Shown here in pieces: positions 2,453-32,228 of a DNA stretch of 42,883 nt. The stretch is taken from assembly GCA_000697475.1 (NCBI GenBank), contig JNEU01000575.1, forward strand, positions 1 through 42,883, in the 5' to 3' direction. The notes beneath the pieces are model-generated. The model searched no databases and had not been told where the DNA came from. It was given only the letters and a program-made list of their open reading frames with translations. Positions within the stretch are counted from its first letter, which is position 1, and each line of letters opens with the position of its first letter. The stretch comes from Lichtheimia corymbifera B2541 (taxonomy: Eukaryota > Mucoromycota > Mucoromycetes > Mucorales > Lichtheimiaceae). The translations under genes were made by a program, and so were the position numbers.

Positions 2453-5400
2453 CTATGAAATGGGTATAACTTGGGTAAAGATATGTATGGTTGCTTCAAG
2501 TTCATCTTTTTGTATGGGTTTGCTAATGTATGCATTCATGCCAGCATCAAAGCATTGTTCTCGGTCGCCTGGCATCACGCATGCTGTCATGGCAATAATG
2601 TAAGGTTGTTTCCCAATCAAGGTATCCGGTGTTTCACGAATCATGCGCGTCGCTTCCAATCCATTAAGCTCCGGCATCCATACATCCATGAAGATCAAAT
2701 CAATAGGTTGACCTTGTGCTGCCGAGTTGATGACCAAATCATATGCTTCTCGCCCATTCTGTGCCATGAGTGGTTGAACATTCAATTTGCTGAGCATGCG
2801 TGAAACGACTTTACGGTTGATTGGATTGTCATCCACAAGTAATGTTTTCACTTTGACGAGACATTCAGACAAGGGTCGTTGTGATGACAAGGTGTTCTTT
2901 TCTTGTAATGCATGTGGTTGCAATAGGTGCTGTTTTTGTTGTTTTTCAGTAACCGTAATGCCATCGCTTGCTGAAACTTTTCCAAGTTGATCATGAAGAG
3001 CGTGAATCAAGGATGAATTCTTAAAGGGCTTATAGAGCACAGCTGATCTTGCAACGGTAGCATTGAGTGGATGCCGATGATGCGACCCGTTTTCGCTGCT
3101 GTGGGATCGCCTATCCCTAATGCAAACAGCTGGCAAGGTGGATACAGGACATGGGAACCACCGTTGAAGTGCATCCAAGGCAATATCGCTTGTTGTTGGT
3201 TGTGGGCCAAGGGGATCAATGATCTCAAGATCCACATCAATGAGCAGCAAGGTCGGCCCATCATCATTGGTTGACTTTTCTTCTTTCAATATATCCATCG
3301 CTTGTTCAAATGTATAACATCGAGTGTCGATCATCCCAAGGCTGTTCAAGATACGTTTCCATGCTGTTTGAAGCGTTTGATCCTGTGCAATCACCAATGT
3401 ATGATGTGTCTCAAATTCCTTCAGCTTGTATTGCTCAGCAAATGTCAGGGTCTTTGGTTGCTTTTGCATCATGACTCGAAAGAAAAAGGTCGATCCTTCA
3501 TCCACAATGGATTCGAACCACTATATACGAGTAATTCCCTGTTACTATTGTCCACTGCAAGATATCCGCATAGCACATACCATATCACCATCCATCATGC
3601 GCGCCAATTGACGGCTAATCGTCAAGCCAAGACCTACATAAATGTAACTTTAGTATATCTGTATTGCCTATATTCATATCGTCCGCTTTACCTGTTCCTC
3701 CAAATCGCCTCGTGGTAGATACATCCACTTGAGAAAATGACTCGAAAAGCTTGTCGGCCTTATCCATTGGTATGCCGATGCCAGTGTCTTCAATTGCAAA
3801 CAAGTAGGACACCCATTCCTCCTCTCCTCCTCCTTCCTTTTTGGAAATAGCAGCAGCTTGATCTGGATCTCGGCACACCCTTACTGACACATAGCCTGAC
3901 GCGGTAAATTTGAATGCATTGGAAAGCCTACAAAGTCCTGTCAGTAATTTGGAGCAATACATAATGCGATATATACCTACATGTTGAGCAGTATTTGCCG
4001 AAGCCGTACCAAATCACCATATACTTGAGCAGGTAATTCTCTCTCCACCTCATACCACAGCAGCACGCCTTTGGCAAGAAAGTTGTCGGACACCAGTTTC
4101 ATTGCACTTTCAATTGCAAATGTCTAGAAGAAAAGAGAGTAAACAAAAGATCAACACGATTTGATAAAGTCATACCAGGTCCAATGGATTCTGCTCCAGT
4201 GATAGGTTCCCTGATTCAATCTTGGAATAATCGAGGACATCGTTGATAAGAGACATTAAATGATTACCTAAAGTAGCGTTCATCAATATGCGTAAAGCAT
4301 GACGACCCAGACAAGCACATACCAGAGGATTCGATTGTTTCAGCACATTCATACAAGTCCGAAGGTAGATCGCTCTCCATCAAAATACGTGACATGCCAA
4401 TTACAGCGTTCATTGGTGTTCGTATCTCTAAATATATGTAATCAGCATTTGGGGGGGGGGGCTTGTGCATGAATAATAAATGGGATTACCATGAGACATG
4501 TTTGCCAGAAAAGATTGCTTTGAAGCAGCGGCCGTCTCTGCAGCCTCTTTTGCCACTTTGAGATCTAACGCATAATATATCATCATTATGCTGTTCTCCC
4601 ACCCGAACCCAAGCCATACCTTTAAGCAATGTTTGTGTCCTCGCCTTTTCCTCCTCTAGCTCGATTGTCCTTTGTTGTAAATTGGCTGTTCGCTCCCGTA
4701 CCAGTTCCTCCATGTCATTGGCGTACTTTTCAAGCTACAAAGACTATAAGTAAATGCTATAGAACTACCGCAATAATACTTACCAGAATAGCCATTTTGT
4801 CCACTACATTGTCGAGGCCACCATAAGGATCAAAGGCTTTGATTCGTTGCTGGATATCACATGGTGTTGTTAGCCACACGCAACCCCTCTACTAATAGGG
4901 AAGACTTACTTTTAGCGATGAAAAAGAAGGCCGCATGCTGGGATCGCGATCGAGACACTCTTCGATTATCTTGTTGATTTTGCTAACGGCATAGCCATCC
5001 TGATCCATATCTTGAGCAAATCGAGGTTTCAAGTCGTCACTGCTGATGAGGCGGAAAATAGCCTTGTGGGACATTCTCTGCTCTTGGTACTCCTTGAATG
5101 GCTTTTCACGGCTGACAATCTCGTTCATAATGATACCAACGCTAATAAGAAGATCTTGTCAATGTGTGGAATGCTCATCATGCATTTGAAACCATACCTG
5201 TATACATCAGAGCGTTTGGTTGGCATAGCAACGCAGGCGTCGAATGGGAGTATTGTCACGGTCTCAGGGGCTAACCACAAGAGCTTTTCATAAGAATCGA
5301 TAATCCTCGGTTGGACAGTGTTGGATGAATCTTGTAGTGGCAGGTAGTTTTTGCGTATCGAGGAAAGCGTCAATGGATCAAGAGTTGAGATGCGAGTGCG

Positions 5401-8400
5401 CATAAGTCCATAGTCGGTGATCTTTAATTCCCATTTCCCGGTAATCATGCATGAATGTGATGTCAGACATCCGTGATACTGAAACTTTGAATTGTACAAG
5501 AAATCCATTCCTTTATAAACCATAGATGAGTACGAGTGTAATGCATGCTTGTGCCGATTCACGTACCTTGGATCAAATCATTTATCAAGGAAAAGCGGAA
5601 TATCCAGCTCAAGTCGATATCCGTGTCATCCAAAACGTCAGCTAAGGAGCCTTTGCTACAGTATTCTAAGGCCCGAGTCAACCATGTTTATCCCATGTAT
5701 ATTTGTAGCTAACACTTTACCTTCTACGATCAACGTGCGATGTGACTCCACGCAAAGACCAACAAGCTCCACGAGATTTGCATGCCTTGCTTCCTTCATA
5801 AGAGCAACCTCCTTCCTCACATCATCATAGACCCGCAAGCGTTTGAATCCAAGTGGTTTTATCAGCACAGGCAGATTGCGACTATAGAATACCTTAGTCA
5901 TGATGCACTTTTTATAGCGAATTGGGCATACTTACTGTGATCCAACGGTATACGCCATGTGCTTTTGTGCTTTGTGGCAGGAAGATTCATCGCATTGTGA
6001 TTTTGGCCTATAATAGTATTACAAGGTGAATATCAAGACATTATGGATCATTCTTTCCTATCGTAGTACCTTGCTAAGCCTAGCATTTCTTTTTGCATGA
6101 TAAGATCGGGGTCTGATACGCTGTTGGTGTTTGCAGCTGCCAAGTGATGATGCCTTGGTAACGTGGTAGCGATGGGCGTATCCATTCGAGAGATCGTGCT
6201 GCGTCGTTGCGATCCACGTTGTTGTAACGTGGCTGGTCTTGATCCAATCTTTTCCTTGTCGTAAAAGGTGTTGTTGTTTGTTGTAGCAAATATATCCTCT
6301 GCAGAGCAACTTCGCACAGGTGGGGTGGCAAGCACAGTGGTTGGATGAGGTGCCACAAGGTCCTGATAAGAGAGCATCCAATCCTGATCGTATAAACGGC
6401 TCTGCTTACGTATACGCTTGCGACATGTCCAGGCAATACCGGTTACGACTGCAGCGAATGCGATAATGCTGATAGGGATCAGCACGCCCATGAGCAACCT
6501 TTTACGCGCAGCATCTTTATCAGCTTTATACCGAAGGCAGTTGGGGTTCTTGCGACCTGCTTTGTCACTGCTGCATAATGCACAAGCTATGGATCCAGGT
6601 AAGGCAAAGGTTCCATAGGGGCACTCGGCACATGATGGCTGGTCGACTTTGTTGTTGAAAGTATTGACGGGACAAGGATGGCATTGTAGGGATGTCTGAG
6701 TATGATTTGCATTGTCCAAGCAATACAAGCTCTTTGAGAGTGTACGATAAAACTGGCCAGGGGGACAAATGCTTGTGATCCGCGACGCACTCACTTTGGT
6801 ATATCGCCATGGTTGATGATGAATGGTCTTTCCAAATAGAATGTCCAGCGATGAAAGAAATCCCATAGAGAAGAGGTTCATAGACCTAGTAATACCCCTT
6901 AGCCATATTTCATCTTTTGCATTGCATGCAATCAACCTACCACATGGCTTTGATACGCCCTTGTAAGAATGCTTGAACTTGATCATACAAGTCGGCTGAC
7001 GTATATAAGCGAGTAGTGTTGCTCATGTAGCCCTTCATCACGCGCTATTATGACGTCGCTGATGAATAAAGATGTTACATGAAAACAGGATGATGAATGA
7101 AGACTTACATTGTTAATCATCTGAAATGCGTATTCTGAAAATGTGACATAGGCGTCTGCTAGGTATTCTCTGGAATGCAATGTGGCGAGGACTCTTTCAA
7201 ATTCAATATCCATGGTCTCGGGTGTCGAAATGTTGATAATATGCACCACGTTATTCGAGTCGAGATTTGGAGTCGAACGTTGCTGCTGAAATTGATCATA
7301 AAAGAAATGACAAAAGTCGCTTTCCTTGCCGGTCGTGCGTTCAGAAAGGCATACAGGCGACATGACCTTATCCTCAATCATCACCTGTGCTACTGATGAT
7401 GCAAGCTTTTTCTTATCGACGGCGATAAACGATTCCATCCTATGAAGAAAGCAAATAAGCTTCTTGGTCATTGTTGATGTCAAAAAGGTACAACTTACGG
7501 TTTGGATAGCTGAATCGGCTCAAAAAAAGTACCAACGTGGGCAAGAGGCAACTCGCTTGCATTCGTAATAGATGCACCATAATTGACAACTGAAGGATCG
7601 CTAGATTGAAGGATGATACCATTGACACCTTGCTTTGCAAAGCTTGCTAGCTCTTGTCGTAAACGATGTGGATGGCCAAGGTAATCGCCCATATCTTGAT
7701 TGAAAATGGTCCAATTGAGCTTGCGTGCAAGATCTCCTGCTCCTGCCATCAATCCAGAGCCATATGTGTCTCCTCTTGTGTTGGGTACAACGGCTCCCAC
7801 ATAAGCTGTCCTATCATTCAAAGGCACCAACGTCGTCTGCTCATTGTCGAGAATGTATGGTAACGTGTCATTGGTAATGAGATTAGGCCCGGTCTTGATA
7901 GTCTCATTCATAAAAACATCATGGCCCGTCAAAATCTATTGTATACATGAGGATTAAAATGGCTGCATGTAAAGAAAAAACATATGACTTACCCGAAGAT
8001 ACATGTAAAACACTGGAAGCGCTGTCTGATAATAAGGAAGCTGTGATATGCCAATGGTATCTTGATGTTCGGCAAATAACCTCGTCATGTTGGATCCACC
8101 AATGTCGAAAAAGGCCGCTCCAATCCGTTCCAAAGAATCGCTTGCCAAGAGATCTAGGACAGCACCTGCAACAATATCCACACCAATCTTGAACGAGTTA
8201 GCACTCTTCATCCCATTGATCACCATTGTTTCATGCAACTTACTGATCCTCCTAGTGACACGACCGAATCAAAGGTACCATTGGACAAGAAGGTATCACG
8301 AACCTGAATAAGGGGCTGAGCTGTATTGTTGTAATCATGCAGGGGCAGTAGCACTGCTTGATGATCCAGGACGGTTTGTAGACTATCGAATCGATGGTAG

Positions 8401-9151
8401 AACGTTGCATTATCCAAATCACCGAGTTGAATCACCAAAGGTCGTTCATATCCTCGATCACGTAGCTCTCTCCCAAGCATGGTTGCTGCTTCATTGTCAT
8501 CTTGCAATACACGTGTCAATCCAAGGCGTTTAGCATATTCAAGGCCGGTGTTGAAGACAAGGACTGGGATATCATGTTCAAGAGCATATTGGGTTGCTTC
8601 AAAGACTTGATCATTTGGAATCGTGAGAATGATGCCGTCAACTCGCTGTCAAAGGGTAACACAAATGTTAATAGACCCGTGTAACATATGAAACAATGAA
8701 CCCCTTCCCCCCTCCTCCTGCATAAATCACATGCATTGTCTACGGCTGTCTGGATATCCTTGGTCATTTTACTGCCGGTGTTGACAAGATGTCTGTTCCA
8801 CTCGACGTGGATATCAGTGATAGCTGCAGCATCGCGTGCACCTTGTTCAGGCTGATGGAAGAACGAAGCCATTGCAGAATCGTGCGAAATGACAGCAATG
8901 CGTGGACGCCGGCCTTGGATGGAAGAAGCATGCTTGTCATTGCATGAAGGAATGTCGGGTTGTCGCTCATGCTGCTCGTGTTTGTTGTCCAAAGCAATGT
9001 TGGAAGAAGCTGGTATTCCTGTATCTGCCCATGGTATTGCCGACGCCATCACGTCATTATACGTAGGTGGAGTTGTGTCATTGTTGTTGGATAATACAAG
9101 CGGTGATAGAGCAAGAACAAAGAGAAAAATCAAGAATGAAGGGGTTGCCAT
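2453..9151 (-). CDS. Receptor-type hybrid histidine kinase with guanylyl-cyclase-like pseudokinase domain
   Basis: Predicted membrane sensor of a multistep phosphorelay, about 1,843 aa in 21 exons: 9151-8735, 8645-8244, 8187-7993, 7935-7499, 7439-7109, 7044-6941, 6885-6070, 6007-5936, 5881-5721, 5665-5567, 5510-5198, 5141-4910, 4849-4784, 4734-4620, 4564-4490, 4427-4323, 4267-4176, 4123-3981, 3927-3692, 3633-3581, 3520-2453; all phases agree. Seen: signal peptide 1-21; two periplasmic-binding-like regions (about 83-370 and 370-620); Cys-rich stalk about 668-745 ([22 protein letters not shown]); TM about 757-783; kinase-homology domain about 910-1195 (YHGCL replaces HRD, ITDYGL, APE, SDVYSVGI); coiled linker ([13 protein letters not shown]); HisKA with SHEIRTP, His about 1278; HATPase (NAFKF, DTGIGIP, GGTGLGL); a degenerate receiver about 1525-1660; a canonical receiver about 1712-1838 (VDDN, MDVWMP, MTA, SKP). 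ATG 9151 precedes the signal peptide; an upstream ATG at 9217 is less likely. Exon 1 ends at a GC donor, or at GT with end 8744. Ligand unknown. Confidence 0.9.
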
Positions 9152-9665: not shown

Positions 9666-10376
9666 TTAATGTTGATGATGATGCTGCTGTTGACCAGGTT
9701 GCCGTTTTCGAACCATATTTCCTGCAGCAACCTTGTGAAAACGAGAATCACATTCACGCCATGAACGATTGGGGAGTTCCTGTGCTACTGCTTTCCAAGC
9801 TTGCTTGAACAATTTTGAATGCTTTTTCATGGCCATAGCTAGCATTTGATCTTCGGTGCTTGACCATTCTCGATGTTCCATGGTTTTGGTTTGTAACGTC
9901 TTGAAACGACCCCAACAACATCCACGAGAACGATGCGGAAGATATGTTGATGAGATCATAGCCCATGAAAGGCCTTGGCTATATCCTCGTTGTAAAAGGT
10001 AATCTTCCTCCTGTGTCCATGGTGTTCGTGTTTGTGGTCCAGAACGATTACGAGGCGGTGTTGCGATAGGTTGTTGTTGTTGCTGTTGTTCGGGAGGATG
10101 GATCATGAGTGATGGCAATGAGTAGGGCGAACTAGGTGGCGATGATGCAGGCGTCAATGAGGGTGATGCATTATAACAAATCGACATGTCGGGTGAGCTG
10201 CTTTCTTCAGAGGATGCTGTAGACATGGTTGACCATTGTTGACGGATATTTTGGGGATGGTTATCCATGGGTGGTGGTGTTTTTACACACTCGTTGGTAG
10301 CGTGGTTGGTAACAATAGACGTTGCATCGGAAGGATGGGAAGCTGTCAAAGGGCAAAGAAGGTTTTTGAGATCCAT
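9666..10376 (-). CDS. Myb/SANT-type transcription factor
   Basis: Single-exon gene for 236 aa, predicted nuclear DNA-binding protein. Two Myb-like repeats occupy the C-terminal half: about 117-160 (TPWTQEEDYLL...W..I......RS...C..R) and about 168-215 (REWSSTEDQMLAMAM...W..VA..L.NRSWRECDSRF). Each has the acidic helix after the first Trp and the regularly spaced aromatic residues typical of SANT domains. The N-terminal half is low complexity, rich in Ser/Pro with a Gln run at 97-102, typical of an activation or linker region. The protein ends in a basic and Gln/His-rich tail. The ATG at 10376 is followed by an uninterrupted frame, and the upstream strand is pyrimidine-rich, as in a 5' UTR. The target genes cannot be read from the sequence. 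Confidence 0.85.
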   Translation of the reverse strand: MDLKNLLCPLTASHPSDATSIVTNHATNECVKTPPPMDNHPQNIRQQWSTMSTASSEESSSPDMSICYNASPSLTPASSPPSSPYSLPSLMIHPPEQQQQQQPIATPPRNRSGPQTRTPWTQEEDYLLQRGYSQGLSWAMISSTYLPHRSRGCCWGRFKTLQTKTMEHREWSSTEDQMLAMAMKKHSKLFKQAWKAVAQELPNRSWRECDSRFHKVAAGNMVRKRQPGQQQHHHQH

Positions 10377-13300
10377 AATAGCAATGTGGTGGATAAGATA
10401 ATGAAAAAGAGAGACTAGGGAAATGGGTCAGTGTATGAAGATGGAGCAGCAGAAATAAGCGGTATTTATATGCATGGATGCAATCCATCTACCTCCCCAG
10501 ACTCTTGTCAATTGAGAGTGAGGAGACTGTAGTGACACCATGATAGCATCATTTGTGTACACATTCACCCGCTACGATGTAACACGCATAACCATTTGTC
10601 ATCTAACTTATTATCTGGTTTACCTCCCCCCCTCTCCCACCCCTTATTATCCCTCATTGTACCTCTGCTTTGGATCTTTGACAGTGCTGCCGATCCCCTT
10701 GTATCAAGGCAAGTCCATCAATCATTTTTTGGGGGCCATGTGTACGTGTATGTGTGTGTGTGTGGCATACCATTTAGCGCATGATGTTGCTTCTCACTTT
10801 GTATGGTTCATTCGCAAACAGCACTCGTTGCATCACACTAGACGCATACACACATGCGCACGCACACATATTTACATACACGCTCTCTTTGGCTGCTGCC
10901 CCTTGTCATTGATGGTCTTAAAGAATGAAGAAGAATTCTCCTTCGTGTCTCCTTTACATGAGATTGAAATACACGTCCGTTCCTCCACGTTTCATCATCA
11001 TTAAATGAATAGGAAGCAACGTACGTATAAGAGAGTTTGATGAAGCTTAATCATAGCGAGCAAACTTTCATCTGTGTATGGTAGCCAAAGCACTGAAATA
11101 GCTAGGCGATGTCATTGTTGTGCGAATAATGATGCAAGTGCCTGTTGTGTCAACTCCTATAACATCACCTGCTGCTGCTCAGCTTGGATCATCATACTTT
11201 TGCAGATCTTTTTTCGTTTCTGCTGGTGTGCTCTTTGTTCCGCTGCATGGGTGTATCAGGAGCATGCATGACAGATTCCTGTGAATGAAGGAGACCCTGA
11301 ACCCTTACGATTCCTTTTTAGGTCACTAGCCCATTTGGAAAGACTAGGGTCCACTTGCGAGAGGGAAGAAAAACGTGTGTTACACTCAGCAGTATTTCAT
11401 CGTTCTCATCGACCATCACCGAAAACCATAAAGGGAGGGAAGGAAAGAAAGAATAACAAAAAGTTGGAGGAGATAGGAGGAATAATTCTGGTGACGAAAA
11501 AGAATGCATCATGGATAGAGTTAGTTGATGGTGTTCTAAACGCTTACAATGTATACAAGAGAAGAGCACGAGTATGCCTTGTTTACATGGATTTCATGCA
11601 CGGGCATTGTTCACCTGTTTCAAAGCACAGATCCTTTTATTATTATTATTTTTATTATTATCATTGTACATACAAAGCCCTGGTAGGCTAAACTGAGTGT
11701 AAGCATTAACAGGGTACGGTTAATGTCACCATTTTGTTTGGGGCTAGAAACTGCTTCCCTCCTCACGTACCCTGAATCGAATAGCTGCTTGCGTGCACGA
11801 TCATCGATTATGGTGGGGTATGGTTGATCGTCCAAAGTGTTTCCAACTTTAGCCAGTGACGCGCGCCACATTGACAAAAAAAGAAATCCAAACTTGTCCC
11901 CTGTGACATTAAAAAAAAAGGGGCGGGGGAGATGTGATGTGAGGATCTGGAAATTGCAAAGAGGAAAGGGGTAGTAGGGGGTACGCGTGGATGTGCACCA
12001 AAGGGAAAAAGAAGGAAAGGGGTGGGTTATCGCGCGACAAAACGACTTGTACCCATGCAACATAAAGGAGCCACTTGAAAGGGAGCCAAGACGAATACAC
12101 CGCCAATGAACAATAATCACAAAGACACCTGACCGCGTTTTCCCTAAAGGTGGTGAACATCTTGAGTCGAGTGAAACCACCCCTTGATTATCGCACGGAC
12201 ACCCTTGTTTCCTTTGGCTTTATTCACTTGTGATGATTGTTATGGTCGATTCCTAACCATGGTCTTCATCATTCACGAAAACAGGAGAATGATATGAGTA
12301 AAAGAGCAAATAGGAAGGAGAAGAGAGTTATCACGTATACACACGTACACACACCCCTGTGCTCAAAGAGCCCCTGACGCTTTAATATTTGTATGTATGT
12401 TCTTTTAACTATTGGCAACCTCATATGATATGGTTTTAGACTCTCCACAATGCGCCATTACCTAAACCTTAATTTTGCTCCGGGCCACTGGTATAGCATA
12501 ACTGCACCTGTCAACTTAATATTCCTCTCTTTTCCATGCATGAATGATTGTGATTGGATAAAAAAAAGCAGTGAATGCCTTTACTGCTGCCATGTCTCCC
12601 ATTTCTTATCGCTGCTACTACCACCACCACTACTACAATGGTGGTAAGGAAAATCCGTGTAAGCGTATAGACTCCCAATGACAACAGGAGGAGGGCGTGT
12701 AGATATGAGCACATGTGCAGCATGATGCATACTTTTTTTGTGTCATCCTCGGATCTAGAAGAGCGTGGACCGTGCTGTCTTTGTCGACATGCATTATGCA
12801 GAAGAATATTGTTTGGTGCTCATCAGATGACCACAGTCAAAATTGTTCTCAGAGTGCACTGACTTTGAAAGACTAACTTTAATGGAACGAGGGTGAACAA
12901 GTAGGGATTCTTAGAACAGCAATTGATGGTGGTATATGGTATACTACGCGTTTTGCACTTTCCCTCCTTCGCTTGACCCCATATCACCTGGTTTGCCGAT
13001 TATTGTTATTAGTGAAAGAGAAGATCCCTGAGATGCAGGGGAAAACAAATGCGATGGGACCTGCCAGAAATGGCATGTCTTATCTTGCATGCAATGCAAA
13101 AGGGCATGGTAATACAGAATTGACAATTGCTACATAAGTCCGATAGTGTGTCATTGTTGCAATATGCTATACACACAGTGAAAGATGCCACATATATAGC
13201 TCATCAGCCTATGTGAACCTTTAGTGCACGTGCAGAAACCGGTTGAAGACCTCCACTGTGGTATGAAAAGGGCGGCAAGAGCGATGGATAGGAGGGTTGA

Positions 13301-14532: not shown

Positions 14533-15320
14533 ATGAGTAACACACGTTTCCTTGATACACTAAGAAAGTATGATTTGCAGCAGGTACAGTATCAACAATG
14601 GGTTTGCAACAAAGCAATGTTATGCTAATGGCGATATTATGGTAGTATTATCCCAGGTACAAAAACGCCCGTAGTCAAGTAGTAGCAATGGTATTGAACC
14701 CTCCGCTCATGTGAATACTATAGTCTTTATTCTCAAGGCATGTCAACTTTGAACGTTTTGGCAGAGGTAAGTAAGAAGAAACAAGAGCTTTAGGAAGAAC
14801 CAAGATTGACGATTGGGGGGGGTTCATTTAGCTATCCATGCAGGATTGTACTCGACTTGGCGTACGTTCGATTGATGACAAGCGTAGATTTATGGCCTTG
14901 GCTGACGATGCTAAGCGACAACTGCAAAGCAAAGCAACCGTATCACAGCATACTCCTATCAAGCGATCTTCAGCAACGACTCCTCCACATACGTCGACTG
15001 CAAGGAAACGACAACATGTCATTCCGCCTTCAGAGAAACAAGCTCGACGCATGACCATTGCACCACAGACCGTTCAACGAGCCAATATCACACGTACTGG
15101 TATCCCATCCTCTATAACAGCGGTCAATAGCAATGCATCCTCCACTACGACTACAACTACCACCACCAATGCACGCAACAATCGACGTTTATCTTATCTT
15201 CCTCGCCAACATCGATCTCCAATCCGTCAACCACAACACCGGTCTCCTATTCGCAAACCAAACACAGCATCGTCATCATCAGCTCATAGCCCTATACGTA
15301 AATCAACTACAACCGCCACC

Positions 15321-15352
<32 letters not shown>

Positions 15353-17755
15353 TTCATTACCCCATAGTCCTATTCGTCGACCAATAACATCATCACCTGG
15401 ATCCAGTCCCTTACGCCCCACTACCAACAGCAAAACACCACCCAAAATGCCAAAGTTTATGGAAGAATCAGGTGTGGAAGTAAAGCCAGCTGAAGAGCCT
15501 GTTCAAGTTCAAAAGCAGCCAACACGTTATTTGGATGCATACGGTATCCCAGTCAACGCACCACCTAGACAACGGCGACTTAGCAACGACGGATTATCTG
15601 GATCATCACCTGCGACTGGCACTTCGATCATGTCATTTGAAGAATATATTCGCGCACGTGCTAATAAGACGACAATCCAAGCTTCAAGCGGCGCAAATAA
15701 CGGCAACAGTGATCTACATCAACGTATCCGTGTCTGTGTCAGGAAACGCCCTCTCAGCAAAAAGGAAATTAATCATGGCGAAATGGATGTTGCGCCTGTT
15801 GTCAGTGCAAGAACGATCCAGATTAATGCTCCCAGGTTGGTTACAAAACACACATACACATCATCACTCATGATCTAATCTTTTCAATTCCAGGACACGT
15901 GTGGATCTCACTCGATTTACGGAGCAGCACTCGTTTACATTCGATGATGTCTTTGATAGCAGCACTACAAATATTGATGTGAGTGAACCAACTTTCTATG
16001 ACATAGGTCGGCCCCAGCTCACGATTATGTGATGATAGATCTATCGGCGAACTGCATATCCATTGGTGGAATATATGTTTGGTGGTGGGAAAGCAACATG
16101 TTTTGCATAGTAAGTATAGGAGGGGTACGCCGCTTTTGAGACAAGGGAGTTTAACTTGCGTTCGATAGCGGTCAAACGGGTAGTGGCAAGACGTACACCA
16201 TGTTGGATCCCAAGCACGGTCTCTATGTACAAGCTGCTCATGATATTTTCCACATGCTTGGCAAGCCCCAATATTCACATCTCTCTGCCTGGGTTGGCTT
16301 TTATGAGATCTATCAAGGACAGCTTTATGATTTGCTCAATCAAAGGAAGCGGTTAACACCTCGTGAGGATGGCAATAGCAATGTTGTTATTGCAGGCTTG
16401 AAAGAGTTTCCGATCAAGGACGTTGACAGGTTGATGGAGGTCTTTGACTTTGGTAGCCAGGCCCGTACAACAGGTAACGTGGATACCAACATGGAATATC
16501 ACAAGTATACTGATGCGTGTTTAATAGGCAAGACGGGTGCCAACAACAACTCTTCTCGATCACATGCAGTCTTGCAAGTGTTGCTTAAATCCAAAGGAGA
16601 CAATACGGCCATCCATGGAAAGCTCAGCTTTATTGATCTGGCAGGAAGTGAACGGGGTGCTGATCGAGGCGAGGCAAATCCAAAGACCAGGTTTGTATTT
16701 ATAGATGGAAAGGCAATTATCGATCAATGCATGCTTATATTGTTTGCGCTTAGAATGGAAGGTGCTGAAATCAACAAGAGCTTGCTGGCATTAAAGGAGT
16801 GTATTCGTGCCCTTGATCAAGATAAACGACATACGCCTTTCCGAGGAAGCAAGCTGACGCAAGTTTTACGAGACTCATTTGTCGGTGACTCGCGAACGTG
16901 TATGATTGCGACCATTTCACCCAACAACCCCAACAGTGAGCATACTTTGAATACTCTACGATATGCTGATAGGTAAGGACAAGCGGGATCAACCAAAGAA
17001 CATATTTTAACTAGGTTAATAGAGTCAAGGAACTCAAAGGCGAATCTGATCCACGGTTGCTAGCTGAAGCAAAAACAGAATCACAGGATTTGATGCCACA
17101 AGATGATATTGCCAGCAATGCCAACTCGGATGCTTTGTGGGATGACGACCAGACTGAAAACCTTTTGGATATTGATTTCCCCAGCCAGATGAGCTCCACC
17201 GCATTAGAAACCCCCAAATCACACCATCCAGCAGCTGGAAGTGGAGGCGATAGTGACATGCCTGACAGGCAACGGCACATGATGCGACGACTATCATCAC
17301 CACCTGCAGAGGTATTTGAGCTGGCACCCGAAGAACCCTTTCAGGATGAGGATACCATCATGACACACCATGATAAACAGGATCCACCACAAAAGCATGA
17401 ACCACAGCCCATGGAATTGCAGCAAGAAGAGGAGGACGCCAGCAGCAAAGAAGTCTCGGTACAACAGATACGCGATTTTATCAGCTTACATCGTGCACAA
17501 ATCAAAGAGCTTGATACTTGCATACAACGCGAAAAGAGGATGGTGTCCAACCTGTCATTAGCGGTCTCCAGTCATTATGATTGCAGTGAAAACAATGGAC
17601 CTGAAGAGAGCAAGGAGAGCCATGAAAAAACCGTTTCATTGTACCAGTCGTATCTCAAAGATCTTGACGACGTGCTCGATGAAAAGTATCATTATGTCGA
17701 GGCTTTAAGAGAAAAGGTCAAACGAGAAATGAGAATCATGCCTGATAGTATATAA
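14533..17755 (+). CDS. Kinesin-13 family microtubule depolymerase
   Basis: Predicted ATP-driven microtubule-end depolymerase of spindle and cytoplasmic arrays. Exons: 14533-14588, 14724-14766, 14832-15835, 15894-15978, 16039-16109, 16169-16473, 16528-16690, 16754-16972, 17023-17755; phases close to give about 892 aa. Motor from about 330 ([15 protein letters not shown]) to 650: P-loop GQTGSGKT 421-428, NNNSSRSH switch I, DLAGSERG switch II about 558. TRVDLTRF sits where kinesin-13 proteins carry the KVD loop, which supports this family over other kinesins. The N-terminus ([17 protein letters not shown]) resembles the SAM-like domain of fungal kinesin-13s, which is why two short upstream exons are proposed; those and the ATG at 14533 are the weakest part. 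Residues about 145-230 hold repeated SPIR motifs and an Ala run. The C-terminal 240 residues are acidic, then coiled-coil. Confidence 0.88.
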
Positions 17756-22757: not shown

Positions 22758-24250
22758 TCTTCGTGTTGCTCATTCCTAGACGCATGAGCTGCTGCGTTGC
22801 ATTAACGACAATCGAAAAAGTGGTCTACAGTAGAGAAAACGTCTGTTGAAGAAAAGGACAAGCATACCACCCTCTCAAAGCTTCATTTACGTTGTTTGCC
22901 GAGTGACAAAGCTTACATTAAAGCTGCTGCTGTCGAGCAAGTACAGTGTTGAAGTAGTGTATTCGTGGTGCTGATGTGTTCGTTGACAACTTGGAAGAGA
23001 TGAGACAAGATGCATAGCTGCTGGTGTCAGCTATCAAAACCCGTTCGAGTGAATTTGAGTCCCCGCTCTACTTGGGCGCAAAATTCCATTCCTGCACACT
23101 GTTTATGTAGATAGCTTGTTTGTTGCTATTAGGAACACCGTCTCGGTGGAGGGTGAAAAGTGAAATACAGTGTAGGATGAGAACGCATATATTGATCATA
23201 TGGTGTCCCGCACCAAAAGCCATCATGTCCGCTACACCATATAACGCATGAACAACACAACGTATAGACAACAGGTTTTATGGTTCGATGAAAAGGTAGC
23301 AACAAACAAGAAAACGCGGCCTAGGGACTAACTATGGTAAATGAAGTATAAATACTATGCATCCAATGCCATTTCGTGTTCCGAAAAACGCCATCAGCAC
23401 GACTATTACGCAGTGACACAGAACAACTAGCGAATATCAATGTATGCAAACGCAGGCCAATTCTTCGTCATTCGCCCAAAGGAAAACTTTTTATCAATGG
23501 TATACATACGTGTGATTAACTATATGAAACGGGTGGATACCGGCATATCATATGTACTGCCATTGAACGCGATTTAGGTTCTTGCGTTCATGCATCCTCA
23601 GGAGCATTTGGACATTGATGCTGTCACTGCAGCTTTATACGTAAACGGGATCTACTACTATTAACCTCCTCTTGGAGATTTGCATAAGACGGCTACATCC
23701 ATTCCCGAAATGATCAATTACTTGTCGTCAACGACTAATGGTAACCGTTGACATGACTTGGAAAGGTTGCTAATGATATATTTGTTTAGGGGCCTCTTGT
23801 GGGTATTTGAGCGTGTTTCGATGTAACATAAGAACTTGTTTCAAATATCATTGTTTGGTATACTTCGTGTGTATTTGAATGTGCTCGGAGATACTCTTGA
23901 AAATGAGGTAGCTTCAGTTAGCTATGTAATGCAAAGATTGCTCTCAGTTTGACCTATTAACATGCTCGATAGCATATCCATTTGATAGTGCTCTTAGATG
24001 GTATCGCTATGAATGAAAGGGTATGATGAACCTATGATATCCAGACTAAACTAAACAGCTCGATGAATATGGTTGATGACATTGGCGAATCGGTATGTCA
24101 AATGGGAGCTGAAAAAGAGAAGGGGACAGTACACAAAGAAGGAATCCAGGTCATCTGATGCATGTGTTACAATGCAAAACGTCGGCATAATGTGGCTAGA
24201 AGCTCTCTGGGCTGAAGTTGACGAGACGGCCAGGCGTTCGTTCGAGACAA

Positions 24251-24257
24251 TTATAAG
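24251..24257 (+). promoter_or_regulatory. TATA-like element of secreted-protein gene A
   Basis: TTATAAG lies about 60 bp upstream of the ATG at 24312. The corresponding position in copy B (31724-31730) is TTATAAA, so the element is kept in both copies. Confidence 0.4.
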
Positions 24258-24311
24258 AGAGGCCCAAAGAGTTCGAGTATTTGCTATCTAATCAAGCTCG
24301 TTCTCTGCTGC

Positions 24312-24755
24312 ATGATGAAGTTCTCAAGTCTCCTCGTTGTCTTTACCGGTCTTTTACTTACTGTTGTCTCTGCCGCACGATACGAGGCCATTCTTAATTT
24401 CCGACCAACGCCTCCCATTTACCCACAGCCTTATTTCACTGTGATTGAGTTGCCAGACATTGGAAAATCGCTTCGGGTCAATTTATGGCAAACTCGCAAC
24501 CCTCAGACTCTTACTGAAGCTTACGGAGACAAACAATCCAAAGGCTATGTTGAGGTTGACGACATCTCCGCTTTTAATGGACGATACGCAGGGCTTGTCA
24601 ATGATAATACAGAATATCTTCATTTGAGAATCCAAGGTGATGGCCAACTGTTTACTTTCATTGGTCAAAGTGCAACGAAGCGACCAGTTACAAACATGAA
24701 GGTTCGAGCAGACGTGCGTCCACTGGTGGAGGATGACCTATTTAGCTGGTGGTAG
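24312..24755 (+). CDS. Small secreted protein, copy A
   Basis: Intronless gene for 147 aa. Residues 1-21 form a classical signal peptide (Lys at 3, Leu/Val core, ending VVSA), so the product is predicted to be secreted as about 126 residues. The mature chain has no cysteine, alternates hydrophobic and polar residues in a way that suggests a beta-rich fold, and ends in an acidic-aromatic tail (DDLFSWW). I do not recognise a family and assign no function. Copy B at 31785 is its only relative in the window. The signal peptide and the central VEVDDISAFNGRYAGLVND block are identical between the two, while the segments around them differ at many residues. It could be a cell-surface or host-interaction protein, but nothing in the sequence proves that. 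Confidence 0.8.
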   Translation: MMKFSSLLVVFTGLLLTVVSAARYEAILNFRPTPPIYPQPYFTVIELPDIGKSLRVNLWQTRNPQTLTEAYGDKQSKGYVEVDDISAFNGRYAGLVNDNTEYLHLRIQGDGQLFTFIGQSATKRPVTNMKVRADVRPLVEDDLFSWW

Positions 24756-29945: not shown

Positions 29946-31723
29946 GGAAAGGTCGAACTTCATAAACAACTTTAATTAAGAGGATGGATAATAGTGCAAG
30001 CTGCAGGTTGGATGAATTGATAATGTAGTAGTGTTTGAGAAGGAGGAAAATCGGTGAGCATATGATCAATGATGGGTGAATGTTGACGATATGGAATAGG
30101 AAACGTGGTGCGTGCATGGTCAATGAAGATTGATGAGGGGTATGTTTATTTGGTTGGTTGGCTGGATTACGTTGCTACCATCATGCCTATATTTTGGTGC
30201 GTGCGTATCAATTTCCCTCTTCGTGTTGCTCATTCCTAGATTCGTGAGCTGCTGCGTTGTATTATGAGAATCGACAAAATGGTCTATAGTAGTGAAAGCG
30301 TCGTCTGTTGAATAAAAAAGACCAGCGTACCACCTTCTCAAAGCTTCTTTTACGTTGTTTTTCCAGTGGCAATATTACATTAAAGTTTCTGTTCGAGTGA
30401 TTACAGTGTTGAAGTAGTGTATTTGTGGCGTTGATGTGTTCCTTGACAACTTGGAAGAGATGAGACAGGCTGCATAGCTACTGGTGTCAGCTATCAAAAC
30501 CCGTTCGAGTGAGATTGGGTCCCCGTTCTACTTGGGCGCAAGATTCCATTCCTGCCACAAAGGCGTAAAGCAACACCATCTACTAAAATGATAGCTTGTT
30601 TATAGCTATTAGGAACACCGTCTCGGTGGAGGGTGAAAATTGTGTGGAATGACAACCCATATATAGATCATATGGTGTCCGTATTATCTCGAAACCCATC
30701 TTACCCGCTACACCATATAAGACATGAATAACACAACGCGTAAACAATGGGCTTTATGGTTCGATGAAAAGGTAACAACAAGCAAGAAAACGCGGACAAG
30801 GGACCAACTATGGTAAATATTATGCACATAATGCATTTCATGTTCCGAAAAACGCCATCAGCAAGACTGATACCCAGTGACACAAATAGCTAGGGAATGT
30901 CAACGTATGCAAATACAGCCCAGTTCGTCATTAGCCAAAGGAAGCCATTTTGGTGATGGTATAGGTGTGATTGACTATATGAAACGAGTGTATACCCACA
31001 TATTATATGTACTACCATTGAATGCGATTTAGGTTCTTGCGTTCATGCATCTTCAGGGACATTTGGTGCAAAGCATGATTATACGCTTTTGAATATTGAT
31101 CCTGTCACTGCGTCTTTATGCATACATAAGCGAGATCTACTATTGACCTCTTCTTGGAGATTTGCATAAGACGGCTACGACACCCATTCCCGGAATGATC
31201 AATTACTTCTTGTCATCAACGACTAATGGCAATCATTGACATAACTTGCAAACTTACTTCATGATATATTTGTTTAGAGTCCTCTTGTGGGTATTTGAAC
31301 GTGTTCCGATGTAACATAAGAACTTGTTTCAAACATATTTGTTTGGTATCCTTTGTGTATATTTGAATGTATTCGGAGATGCTCTTGTAGATGAGGTAAC
31401 TTCAGTTGCTAATGCATAAGTTGCTCTCAATGGGACCTACTAACATGCTCGATAGCATATCCATTTGATTAGTGCTCTTAGATGGTATCGTTATAAATGA
31501 AAAGGTATGAATGAACCTATAATATTCAAGCTAACCCAAGCGTGGTTGACCAGATTGGCGAATTGGTATATCAAATGGGAGCTGAAAAAGAGAAGGGTAC
31601 AGTCCACAAAGAAGGGATCCAGGTCGTCTGATGCATGTGGTACAATGCAAAACGCCAGCATAATGTGACTAGAAGCTCTCTGGGTTGAAGTTGATAAGAC
31701 AACTAGGCGTTCGTTCGAGACAA

Positions 31724-31730
31724 TTATAAA
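31724..31730 (+). promoter_or_regulatory. TATA-like element of secreted-protein gene B
   Basis: TTATAAA about 60 bp upstream of the ATG at 31785, at the same relative place as TTATAAG in copy A. Confidence 0.4.
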
Positions 31731-31784
31731 AGATGTCCAAAAAGTTCGAGTACTTGCTATCTAATCAAGCTCGTTCTCTGCTGC

Positions 31785-32228
31785 ATGATGAAGTTCTCAA
31801 GTCTCCTCGTTGTCTTTACCGGTCTTTTGCTTACTGTTGTCTCTGCCGCACGATACCCGGCCGCTCTTAAATTTTTACCATCGCCTCACATTTACCCACC
31901 GCCTTATTTCACTGTGATTGACCTGCCAACCATTAGAAAAACGCTTCGCGTCAGTTTATGGCAACTCGACCAACCTCAGACTCTTACTGAAGCTTACTAC
32001 GGAAAAGTATCCAGAGGCTATGTTGAGGTTGACGACATCTCCGCTTTTAATGGACGATACGCAGGGCTTGTCAATGATGATACAGAATCTCTCCAGCTGA
32101 GAATCCAAGGTGATGGCCAACTGTTTACTTTCATTGGTCAAAGTGCAACGGTGGAAGAAGTTACAGACTTGAAGGTTCGAGCGGACGTAATTCCAGAGGA
32201 GGACGATGACCTATTTAGCTGGTGGTAG
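31785..32228 (+). CDS. Small secreted protein, copy B
   Basis: Intronless, 147 aa, same length as copy A without any gap. The 21-residue signal peptide is identical at the protein level and the mature protein again lacks cysteine and ends DDLFSWW. About 31 residues differ from copy A, concentrated in residues 24-78 and 98-143. Charge patterns change (for example a basic KRP in A becomes an acidic EE-containing stretch in B). Only about eight synonymous differences are visible. The frame is intact and the flanking promoter-like sequence is conserved, so both copies are likely expressed genes. Function unknown. Confidence 0.8.
   Translation: MMKFSSLLVVFTGLLLTVVSAARYPAALKFLPSPHIYPPPYFTVIDLPTIRKTLRVSLWQLDQPQTLTEAYYGKVSRGYVEVDDISAFNGRYAGLVNDDTESLQLRIQGDGQLFTFIGQSATVEEVTDLKVRADVIPEEDDDLFSWW

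Follow-up and report, generated by a model that had tools for sequence, protein, structure and literature searches.

Receptor pseudokinases of the guanylyl cyclase type are usually treated as part of animal cyclic GMP (cGMP) receptors. Receptor guanylyl cyclases (RGCs) like GC-A/NPR1 have a single transmembrane (TM) helix, a pseudokinase called the kinase homology domain (KHD), an S-helix linker and a C-terminal class III cyclase. According to PMC1435932, which also defines the RGC domains, the animal KHD is a negative regulator of the guanylyl cyclase dimer. Fungal hybrid histidine kinases (HKs), which include Sln1p and groups I-XVI, are built on a core of HisKA, HATPase_c and receiver (REC) domains; in Sln1p, an S-helix lies upstream. 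Early-diverging fungi have unprecedented hybrid HKs with TM helices, as stated in the accessible part of PMC5285503. No fungal guanylate cyclases have been described, according to PMC8778642, yet a rhodopsin-guanylyl cyclase of a fungus is on record (PMC4046227). Here, we describe a gene of Lichtheimia corymbifera B2541, at positions 2453-9151 of contig JNEU01000575.1 (42,883 nucleotides, called the window below). The gene, and each of its features, is on the minus strand. It is predicted to encode a receptor hybrid HK with an RGC-type KHD.

The model consists of 21 exons. Joined via 20 GT-AG introns, of 49-89 nucleotides, these form a single uninterrupted frame of 1843 amino acids in which the phases agree. 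At exon junction 1, two splice pairs fit the DNA equally; the pair chosen restores the family-consensus motif AVDxxVDGI. Note that the exon model is a prediction, backed by homologues. In particular, a predicted protein from Phascolomyces articulosus (P0001) is collinear with residues 59-1839 at 56% identity. Pfam finds, in order, Peripla_BP_4, Ephrin_rec_like, PK_Tyr_Ser-Thr, HisKA, HATPase_c and Response_reg. A first-pass annotation had proposed one continuous, phase-consistent 21-exon gene, encoding a signal peptide, tandem periplasmic binding protein (PBP) domains, a Cys-rich stalk, one TM helix, a KHD, a linker and HisKA-HATPase-REC-REC. The open frame, its ends and P0001 bear out the first proposal, while Pfam and hydropathy bear out the second, with the proviso that the first REC is degenerate. 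The presence of one receptor gene with this domain order is confirmed at the level of the predicted protein.

Two known kinds of protein, the RGC chassis and the hybrid HK, are joined in one family, and the strongest facts are kinship and architecture. We think it probable that the protein is a ligand-gated hybrid HK on an RGC KHD/S-helix chassis. The homology is firm; the ligand and the phosphorelay are what we infer.

Kinship of the kinase homology domain and linker

The KHD spans residues 919-1202 (positions 4823-5955), and Pfam places PK_Tyr_Ser-Thr at 923-1195 (E 1.5e-29). We compared the KHD and linker with all PDB sequences. Human GC-A was the best match, at 142.9 bits, in an alignment that starts at the beta-3 strand and includes the linker. 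It was followed by GC-C (84.8 bits) and then by the best ordinary kinase, RIPK1 (59.9 bits), in a ranking from the best 60 of 732 distinct sequences at E<=1e-5. Profiles of the fungal and RGC regions align with probability 100 over 298 columns, at 35% identity. Since this alignment of the KHD runs on through the linker, the linker continues the RGC homology. Similarly, in a fold search with the homologue P0009, the first GC-A rows (29, 37 and 38) precede the first ordinary kinase, RIPK1 (row 43), among the best 50 rows, which are headed by HKs. Within the L. corymbifera genome (35 Mb, 432 contigs), the best piece of a paralogue matched the KHD at 86 bits and the next other kinase at 28 bits. 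Among the loci fetched from this genome, the paralogue scored 96 and 50 bits, against 28 for the next kinase.

Phylogeny gave the same grouping. We built a tree of 58 rows: 31 fungal, 11 RGC and 16 other kinases, where the fungal rows are 30 of 113 proteins found in database searches plus the present gene. Fungal KHDs form one group (support 100/99) and share a branch with RGCs against the other kinases (100/99). Constraining the fungal KHDs to group with ABL1, BRAF, RIPK1 and LIMK1, a set chosen after the first tree was known, costs 45 log units and is rejected by the approximately unbiased test (p-AU 6.9e-8). An earlier tree of 56 rows, with 27 of the 113 fungal proteins and the present gene, agrees on the grouping of fungi and RGCs. 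In that tree, six fungal rows and one own-genome row overran the kinase domain and were cut by column filling only. For the 58-row tree, overrunning rows were trimmed, and the long-branch own-genome kinases L047, L056 and L060 omitted. P0023, P0029 and P0030, found with the KHD and linker as query, were left out of the trees. The annotation had likened the KHD to those of animal guanylyl cyclases, and named a phylogeny as the check. The PDB scores, the 100/99 branch and the constraint all agree with that likeness, and in the sampled tree the KHD groups with RGCs, not with ordinary kinases. We conclude that the KHD is supported, by these comparisons, as a genuine RGC relative and not a generic Ser/Thr kinase.

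By its residues, the KHD looks like a pseudokinase. In the present protein, HRD is replaced by HGC and DFG by DYG, while the beta-3 Lys is kept. None of 112 rows (111 fungal proteins and the present one) has the Lys, the HRD Asp and the DFG Asp together. A gap occurs at one of these positions in 14 of the 112, and each such row also lacks another catalytic residue. The commonest triplets are R-D-G (40 rows), K-R-G (21), gap-R-G (10) and K-C-D (8), the last being that of the present protein.

The linker, at residues 1205-1262 (positions 4539-4816), was delimited by motif, spacing and profile alignment. RGC linkers follow the pattern EKYAN.LEELV..RT....EEKKKT..LLYRMLP. Fungal linkers end like [KR]ARTQ.LLKDLK and some have YGN or YVN; both kinds hold EKYAN..E.LV..RT and EE[KR]..T..LL. 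The profile alignment between them crosses the linker with one 7-column gap. To measure spacing we used a pattern expression that matched 99 of 114 proteins, the present one included, and left 15 unmatched. From ERT to LL, the fungal distance is 19 residues in 83 of the 99 and 18 in one; the other 15 have no LL in the tested range. For RGCs, the expression matched the linkers of 7 out of 10, and the equivalent distance is 12 in these 7; two were read by eye, as a further LL had misled the count. From ERT to the H-box, the fungal distance is 45 in 97 of the 99, 59 in P0077 and 62 in P0015. The P0077 linker is longer by two 7-residue repeats, a natural change by whole heptads. P0015 has 17 residues more, apparently an intron left in. 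We also gathered 80 prokaryotic kinase loci by similarity, and called ERT helices by pattern expression. Such helices were found in 15, at 24, 31, 38 or 45 residues from the H-box, all equal to 3 modulo 7. YAN precedes none of these 15.

An ERT signature is thus found in a predicted heptad linker between sensor and dimeric output, as in the S-helix. Judged by pattern and spacing, the linker is an S-helix of the RGC type with one heptad more than in RGCs, and it is spaced from the His as in bacterial S-helix kinases. Functionally, the RGC KHD/S-helix module would be joined to the HK in a working register. In both Sln1p-type kinases and RGCs, S-helix mutants fail to turn off, according to the text available of PMC1592074. 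The YAN/ERT motif was rejected as proof of RGC kinship by itself. ERT helices also occur in HKs, so the linker is evidence only in combination with the KHD. Hence, of the likeness to animal guanylyl cyclase linkers that the annotation pointed out, the homology seen by profile with the KHD stands, and the motif taken by itself is no proof.

The ectodomain

The chain starts with a predicted signal peptide, residues 1-21 (positions 9089-9151; end set by eye), where hydropathy exceeds 2 at residues 1-3. The first PBP domain covers residues 83-360 (positions 7870-8905), with the best Peripla_BP_4 stretch at 85-276. A second PBP-like domain lies at residues ~395-660 (positions 6792-7767). It is followed by the Cys-rich stalk, residues 669-745 (positions 6537-6767), which holds 9 Cys and an Ephrin_rec_like match at 694-722 (E 5e-5; 23.4 bits, cut-off 23.1). 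Hydropathy, reaching 2.56, indicates one strong TM segment at residues ~757-783 (positions 6423-6503); a weak peak near 266-270 falls inside the first PBP domain.

In a separate scan, the second PBP-like part gives Peripla_BP_4 at 22.1 bits (E 1.3e-4), below the cut-off of 35.1 bits. Direct comparison of the two parts gives only E 0.58. Their kinship appears through family profiles, which match with probability 98.5 over 248 columns. Furthermore, the second part is an alpha/beta domain in the predicted model of the homologue P0029. A fold search, covering the first PBP only, indicates the PBP type I sugar-binding fold for that domain. This fold is that of the sugar-binding substrate-binding proteins of ATP-binding cassette transporters and of XylFII-LytS; XylFII-LytSN complexes are among the matches of the first PBP, as far as their available description goes. 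The difference from these systems is that the two PBP domains are built into the receptor chain itself.

PF01094, the ANF_receptor-type ectodomain that is usual, but not universal, in RGCs, was not found by the Pfam scan, which gave Peripla_BP_4 instead. Comparison of the ectodomain profile with those of RGC ectodomains gave no alignment (probability 1.9, both profiles being shallow). An animal-type ectodomain was rejected on these two results. On the evidence of profiles and fold, the ectodomain consists of two sugar-binding-type PBPs in tandem and differs from the animal RGC ectodomain. The annotation had held that the protein keeps the whole receptor chassis. That is supported for the KHD, the linker and the single TM helix, and not supported for the ectodomain, which belongs to another PBP family. 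Note that P0131 (EukProt Nk52_evm107s221, a prefix that we take to be ichthyosporean) has a KHD, a coiled linker and a cyclase. Since Pfam finds no PBP domain in its ectodomain, this part differs in the P0131 lineage too.

The histidine kinase core and the host genome

HisKA occupies residues 1269-1333 (positions 4209-4520), and its H-box contains the predicted phospho-accepting His1278. HATPase_c is at residues 1380-1505 (positions 3470-4018) and contains the N, G1, F and G2 boxes. The second REC, residues 1715-1833 (positions 2486-2842), is complete, with LLVDDN, FMDVW and SKP, and a predicted phospho-accepting Asp1767. All five boxes and this REC are conserved in a 13-protein alignment. The protein hence has what defines a hybrid HK: HisKA with its His, HATPase_c with N and G boxes, and a REC with Asp and Lys. 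The first REC, residues ~1550-1660 (positions 3005-3337), is degenerate. Scanned alone, it gives Response_reg at 15.5 bits (E 0.02), below the cut-off, and the two receivers do not match each other when compared directly; IIDxD is kept in the family consensus. It is probably a pseudo-receiver. In a Pfam scan of the 1843-residue protein, we found no class III guanylyl cyclase domain at the C terminus and no PAS, GAF, HAMP or phytochrome sensor. The output proposed by the annotation, a hybrid HK rather than a cyclase, is supported by the Pfam domains present and by the lack of a cyclase among them.

Comparison with described systems places the protein between them. With GC-A/NPR1-type RGCs it shares the single TM helix, a KHD with lost catalytic residues and RGC kinship, and a predicted coiled-coil linker after the KHD. 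It lacks the C-terminal class III cyclase, in place of which stands HisKA-HATPase-REC-REC, and the ANF_receptor-type ectodomain, in place of which stand the tandem PBPs with their Cys-rich stalk. Unlike fungal hybrid HKs, with which it shares the core and the upstream S-helix, it has an RGC KHD between the membrane and the S-helix, and Pfam shows in it none of the PAS, GAF, HAMP or phytochrome sensors. The core and part of the S-helix also align with BarA/TorS/GacS-type bacterial hybrid kinases, and the folds of GacS and ShkA match P0009; the RGC KHD is present only in the fungal protein. BarA/TorS/GacS-type kinases carry different sensors. The two-component cyclase opsins of green algae likewise hold HK and guanylyl cyclase signalling parts in one chain, as far as the available descriptions go. 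In the opsins, kinase parts are upstream of the cyclase, whereas the fungal kinase takes the cyclase's place.

We then consider the genome in which the receptor sits. It has 22 HisKA matches, some being pieces of one gene, and two histidine phosphotransfer (HPt) loci. Three class III cyclase loci were found, all adjoining PP2C frames, a layout that we take to be that of Cyr1-type fungal adenylyl cyclases. An RGC was not seen, in a search that scores best candidates only. The paralogue mentioned above (L032, contig C363, positions 215500-225400, minus strand) is closest to P0006 of Lichtheimia hyalospora. It matches P0006 in 14 pieces of 53-100% identity, 11 of them above 66%, and its summed score is well above that with the next protein. 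Because this second family gene is closest to P0006, the genome holds at least two subtypes of the receptor family.

Elsewhere in the window, an intact frame with Myb/SANT-like repeats (by eye) lies directly upstream of the receptor gene (9666-10427, minus strand). Exons of a kinesin motor protein (by eye) are at 14832-17755, plus strand. Two very similar short frames, at 24222-24755 and 31707-32228 (plus strand), are ~7.5 kb apart and have the signal-like start MMKFSSLLVVFTGLLLTVVSA. They are copies of a small secreted-looking protein.

Distribution, alternatives and proposed mechanism

The annotation had called for a search for the same architecture across Mucoromycota. Two protein searches together found 113 fungal proteins in 27 genera, which we place in Mucorales and Mortierellales. 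The searches covered 5.8 billion proteins and were length-limited and word-filtered (short exact words). With the KHD and linker as query, 39 proteins were found, of which 30 belong to Mucoromycota. A Guanylate_cyc domain is present in 8, seven of them from named animals and one from an unnamed source, and 1 other protein matched at E 1e-3. A Mortierella query found 98: 94 from Mucoromycota, an insect cyclase, P0131 and two other kinase-domain proteins (E 1.7e-11 and 8e-5). A search with the KHD only, limited to short proteins, gave 7 matches, which by eye are six fungus-like fragments and one animal-like protein; these are not counted. The H-box is present in 111 of the 113 fungal proteins, the exceptions being P0029 and P0129, and PF00211 is listed in none of the 113. 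For P0008, P0016, P0020 and P0029 no HATPase domain is listed; these gene models are probably truncated. UniRef names both P0008 and P0029 guanylate cyclase. Across the family, source labels include hypothetical protein, histidine kinase, guanylate cyclase, RGC/RGC protein kinase and Receptor-type guanylate cyclase gcy-13.

The figures of PMC5285503 and PMC4965123 catalogue HKs of Mortierella, Umbelopsis and Lichtheimia. An RGC KHD in an HK is not described in the parts available of these two papers, nor in those of PMC8510515, PMC6944256, PMC8778642, PMC1435932, PMC1592074 and PMC2699053. The architecture was not recognised in the accessible text of the open-licence literature; earlier drawings may exist in the catalogue figures of PMC5285503 and PMC4965123. 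Hence, the annotation's word "undescribed" holds for descriptions in that literature, and fails in so far as the family already stands in public databases, in 27 genera and under mixed labels.

Several alternatives concern what the protein is. Being predicted from its letters, the gene could be two adjacent genes, or an assembly join, mistaken for one. This is scarcely credible: the collinear homologue is full length at 56% identity, the domain order is identical across many independently named assemblies, and the 45-residue spacing across the KHD/HK border is constant in 97 of 99 proteins. Two separate genes were rejected on P0001. The protein might also be an ordinary fungal hybrid HK with a generic Ser/Thr-kinase-related sensor, of the group X or dual kinase sort, its RGC likeness being convergence or chance. 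Fungal HKs with a Ser/Thr-kinase-related domain are known (PMC4965123, available part) and ERT linkers are present in HKs (PMC1592074, likewise). However, 83 bits separate GC-A from the best ordinary kinase in the PDB, the branch with RGCs has support of 100/99, and the constrained alternative has a p-AU of 7e-8. Moreover, YAN (or YGN, YVN, YAD) precedes ERT in fungal and RGC linkers, against no YAN in the 15 prokaryotic ERT helices. We regard a generic sensor as highly improbable, and rejected it on the PDB score gap and the tree. An active Ser/Thr kinase, in a dual-output receptor, is very unlikely in our view. In the present protein the beta-3 Lys is retained, as is the Asp of DFG (here DYG), and 46 of 112 fungal rows have Asp at the HRD position (R-D-G and R-D-S). 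Against this, no row has all three catalytic residues and Cys replaces the HRD Asp of the present protein, so that an active kinase domain was rejected on residues.

Two further alternatives concern output and origin. Many hybrid kinases are bifunctional, and the first REC is degenerate; the main role of the core could be that of a phosphatase or scaffold acting on HPt proteins shared with other kinases. Since the five boxes (H, N, G1, F, G2) and the complete second REC are conserved in 13 proteins, we consider this unlikely, and prefer a phosphorelay output. As for origin, an RGC gene of an animal or other holozoan may have been transferred into the Mucoromycota ancestor, its cyclase then being replaced by an HK, with function as proposed here. 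In the 58-row tree RGCs are paraphyletic, and fungal KHDs group with P0131 inside them (96/81), which speaks for transfer. However, the outgroup branch on which the root placement relies is long (1.5), as is that of P0131 (1.95), and the gene may instead have come down vertically from an opisthokont ancestor and been lost elsewhere. Transfer is a possibility that we hold at well under even odds. As for the order of events, an HK may have replaced a cyclase, or both outputs may have been joined to an older KHD/S-helix module.

Some observations weigh against a ligand-gated HK on an RGC chassis. The ectodomain differs from that of RGCs, the proposed ligand class draws on remote similarity of the first PBP, and the second PBP is weak by Pfam. 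In the AlphaFold model of P0009, one continuous helix (384-472) connects the end of the KHD with the H-box (454), with a predicted local distance difference test score (pLDDT) of only 51-69 in this block. A BarA-type family model aligns from within the linker (residue 1240 of P0001). Because of this, the joint may lie within the S-helix, and part of the linker may derive from the HK side. The ERT S-helix is found upstream of both Sln1p-type kinases and RGCs (PMC1592074, available text), and the 7-residue spacing partly reflects common descent. In the tree, the outgroup branch is long, RGCs are paraphyletic and the outgroup sample is small (4 animal kinases and 15 or 12 own-genome kinases). The Mortierella query also scores 62 bits against P0132, a plant kinase-bearing protein, so that similarity at the level of the kinase is not specific by itself. 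The family distribution is a lower bound. Finally, the gene, the protein and its function are predicted here from sequence.

We propose that the ligand-gated HK is a single-pass cell-surface receptor, of a family in Mucorales and Mortierellales. Extracellular tandem PBPs would probably bind a small ligand, perhaps sugar- or polyol-like. The ligand-driven change would pass through the Cys-rich stalk and the single TM helix to the RGC-type pseudokinase, and on to the S-helix coiled coil. Since the KHD/S-helix module, with its one extra heptad, is joined to the HisKA/HATPase/REC core, the ligand would set His1278 autophosphorylation. Phosphate would then move from His1278 to Asp1767 of the second REC, and on via an HPt protein. 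The ligand class, the direction of regulation, the dimer mechanics and the pathway are what we infer at each of these steps.

More broadly, there is perhaps an even chance that the RGC pseudokinase and S-helix are, rather than an animal cyclase device, an output-neutral dimer switch, common to animals and Mucoromycota. Any parallel-dimer effector, cyclase or HK, could then be plugged in if the heptad register were kept, and the fungi would use the switch to convert an extracellular small-molecule signal to a phosphorelay. Finding the same pseudokinase and linker on an HK would point to a module that regulates dimeric outputs generally. How the KHD acts, be it by ATP binding, repression or dimer rotation, could be probed through an output quite unlike cGMP. 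The family also corrects the public naming of some of its members as guanylate cyclases. For Mucoromycota, which include soil saprotrophs and opportunistic pathogens, the family would provide a class of receptor kinase for extracellular small molecules.

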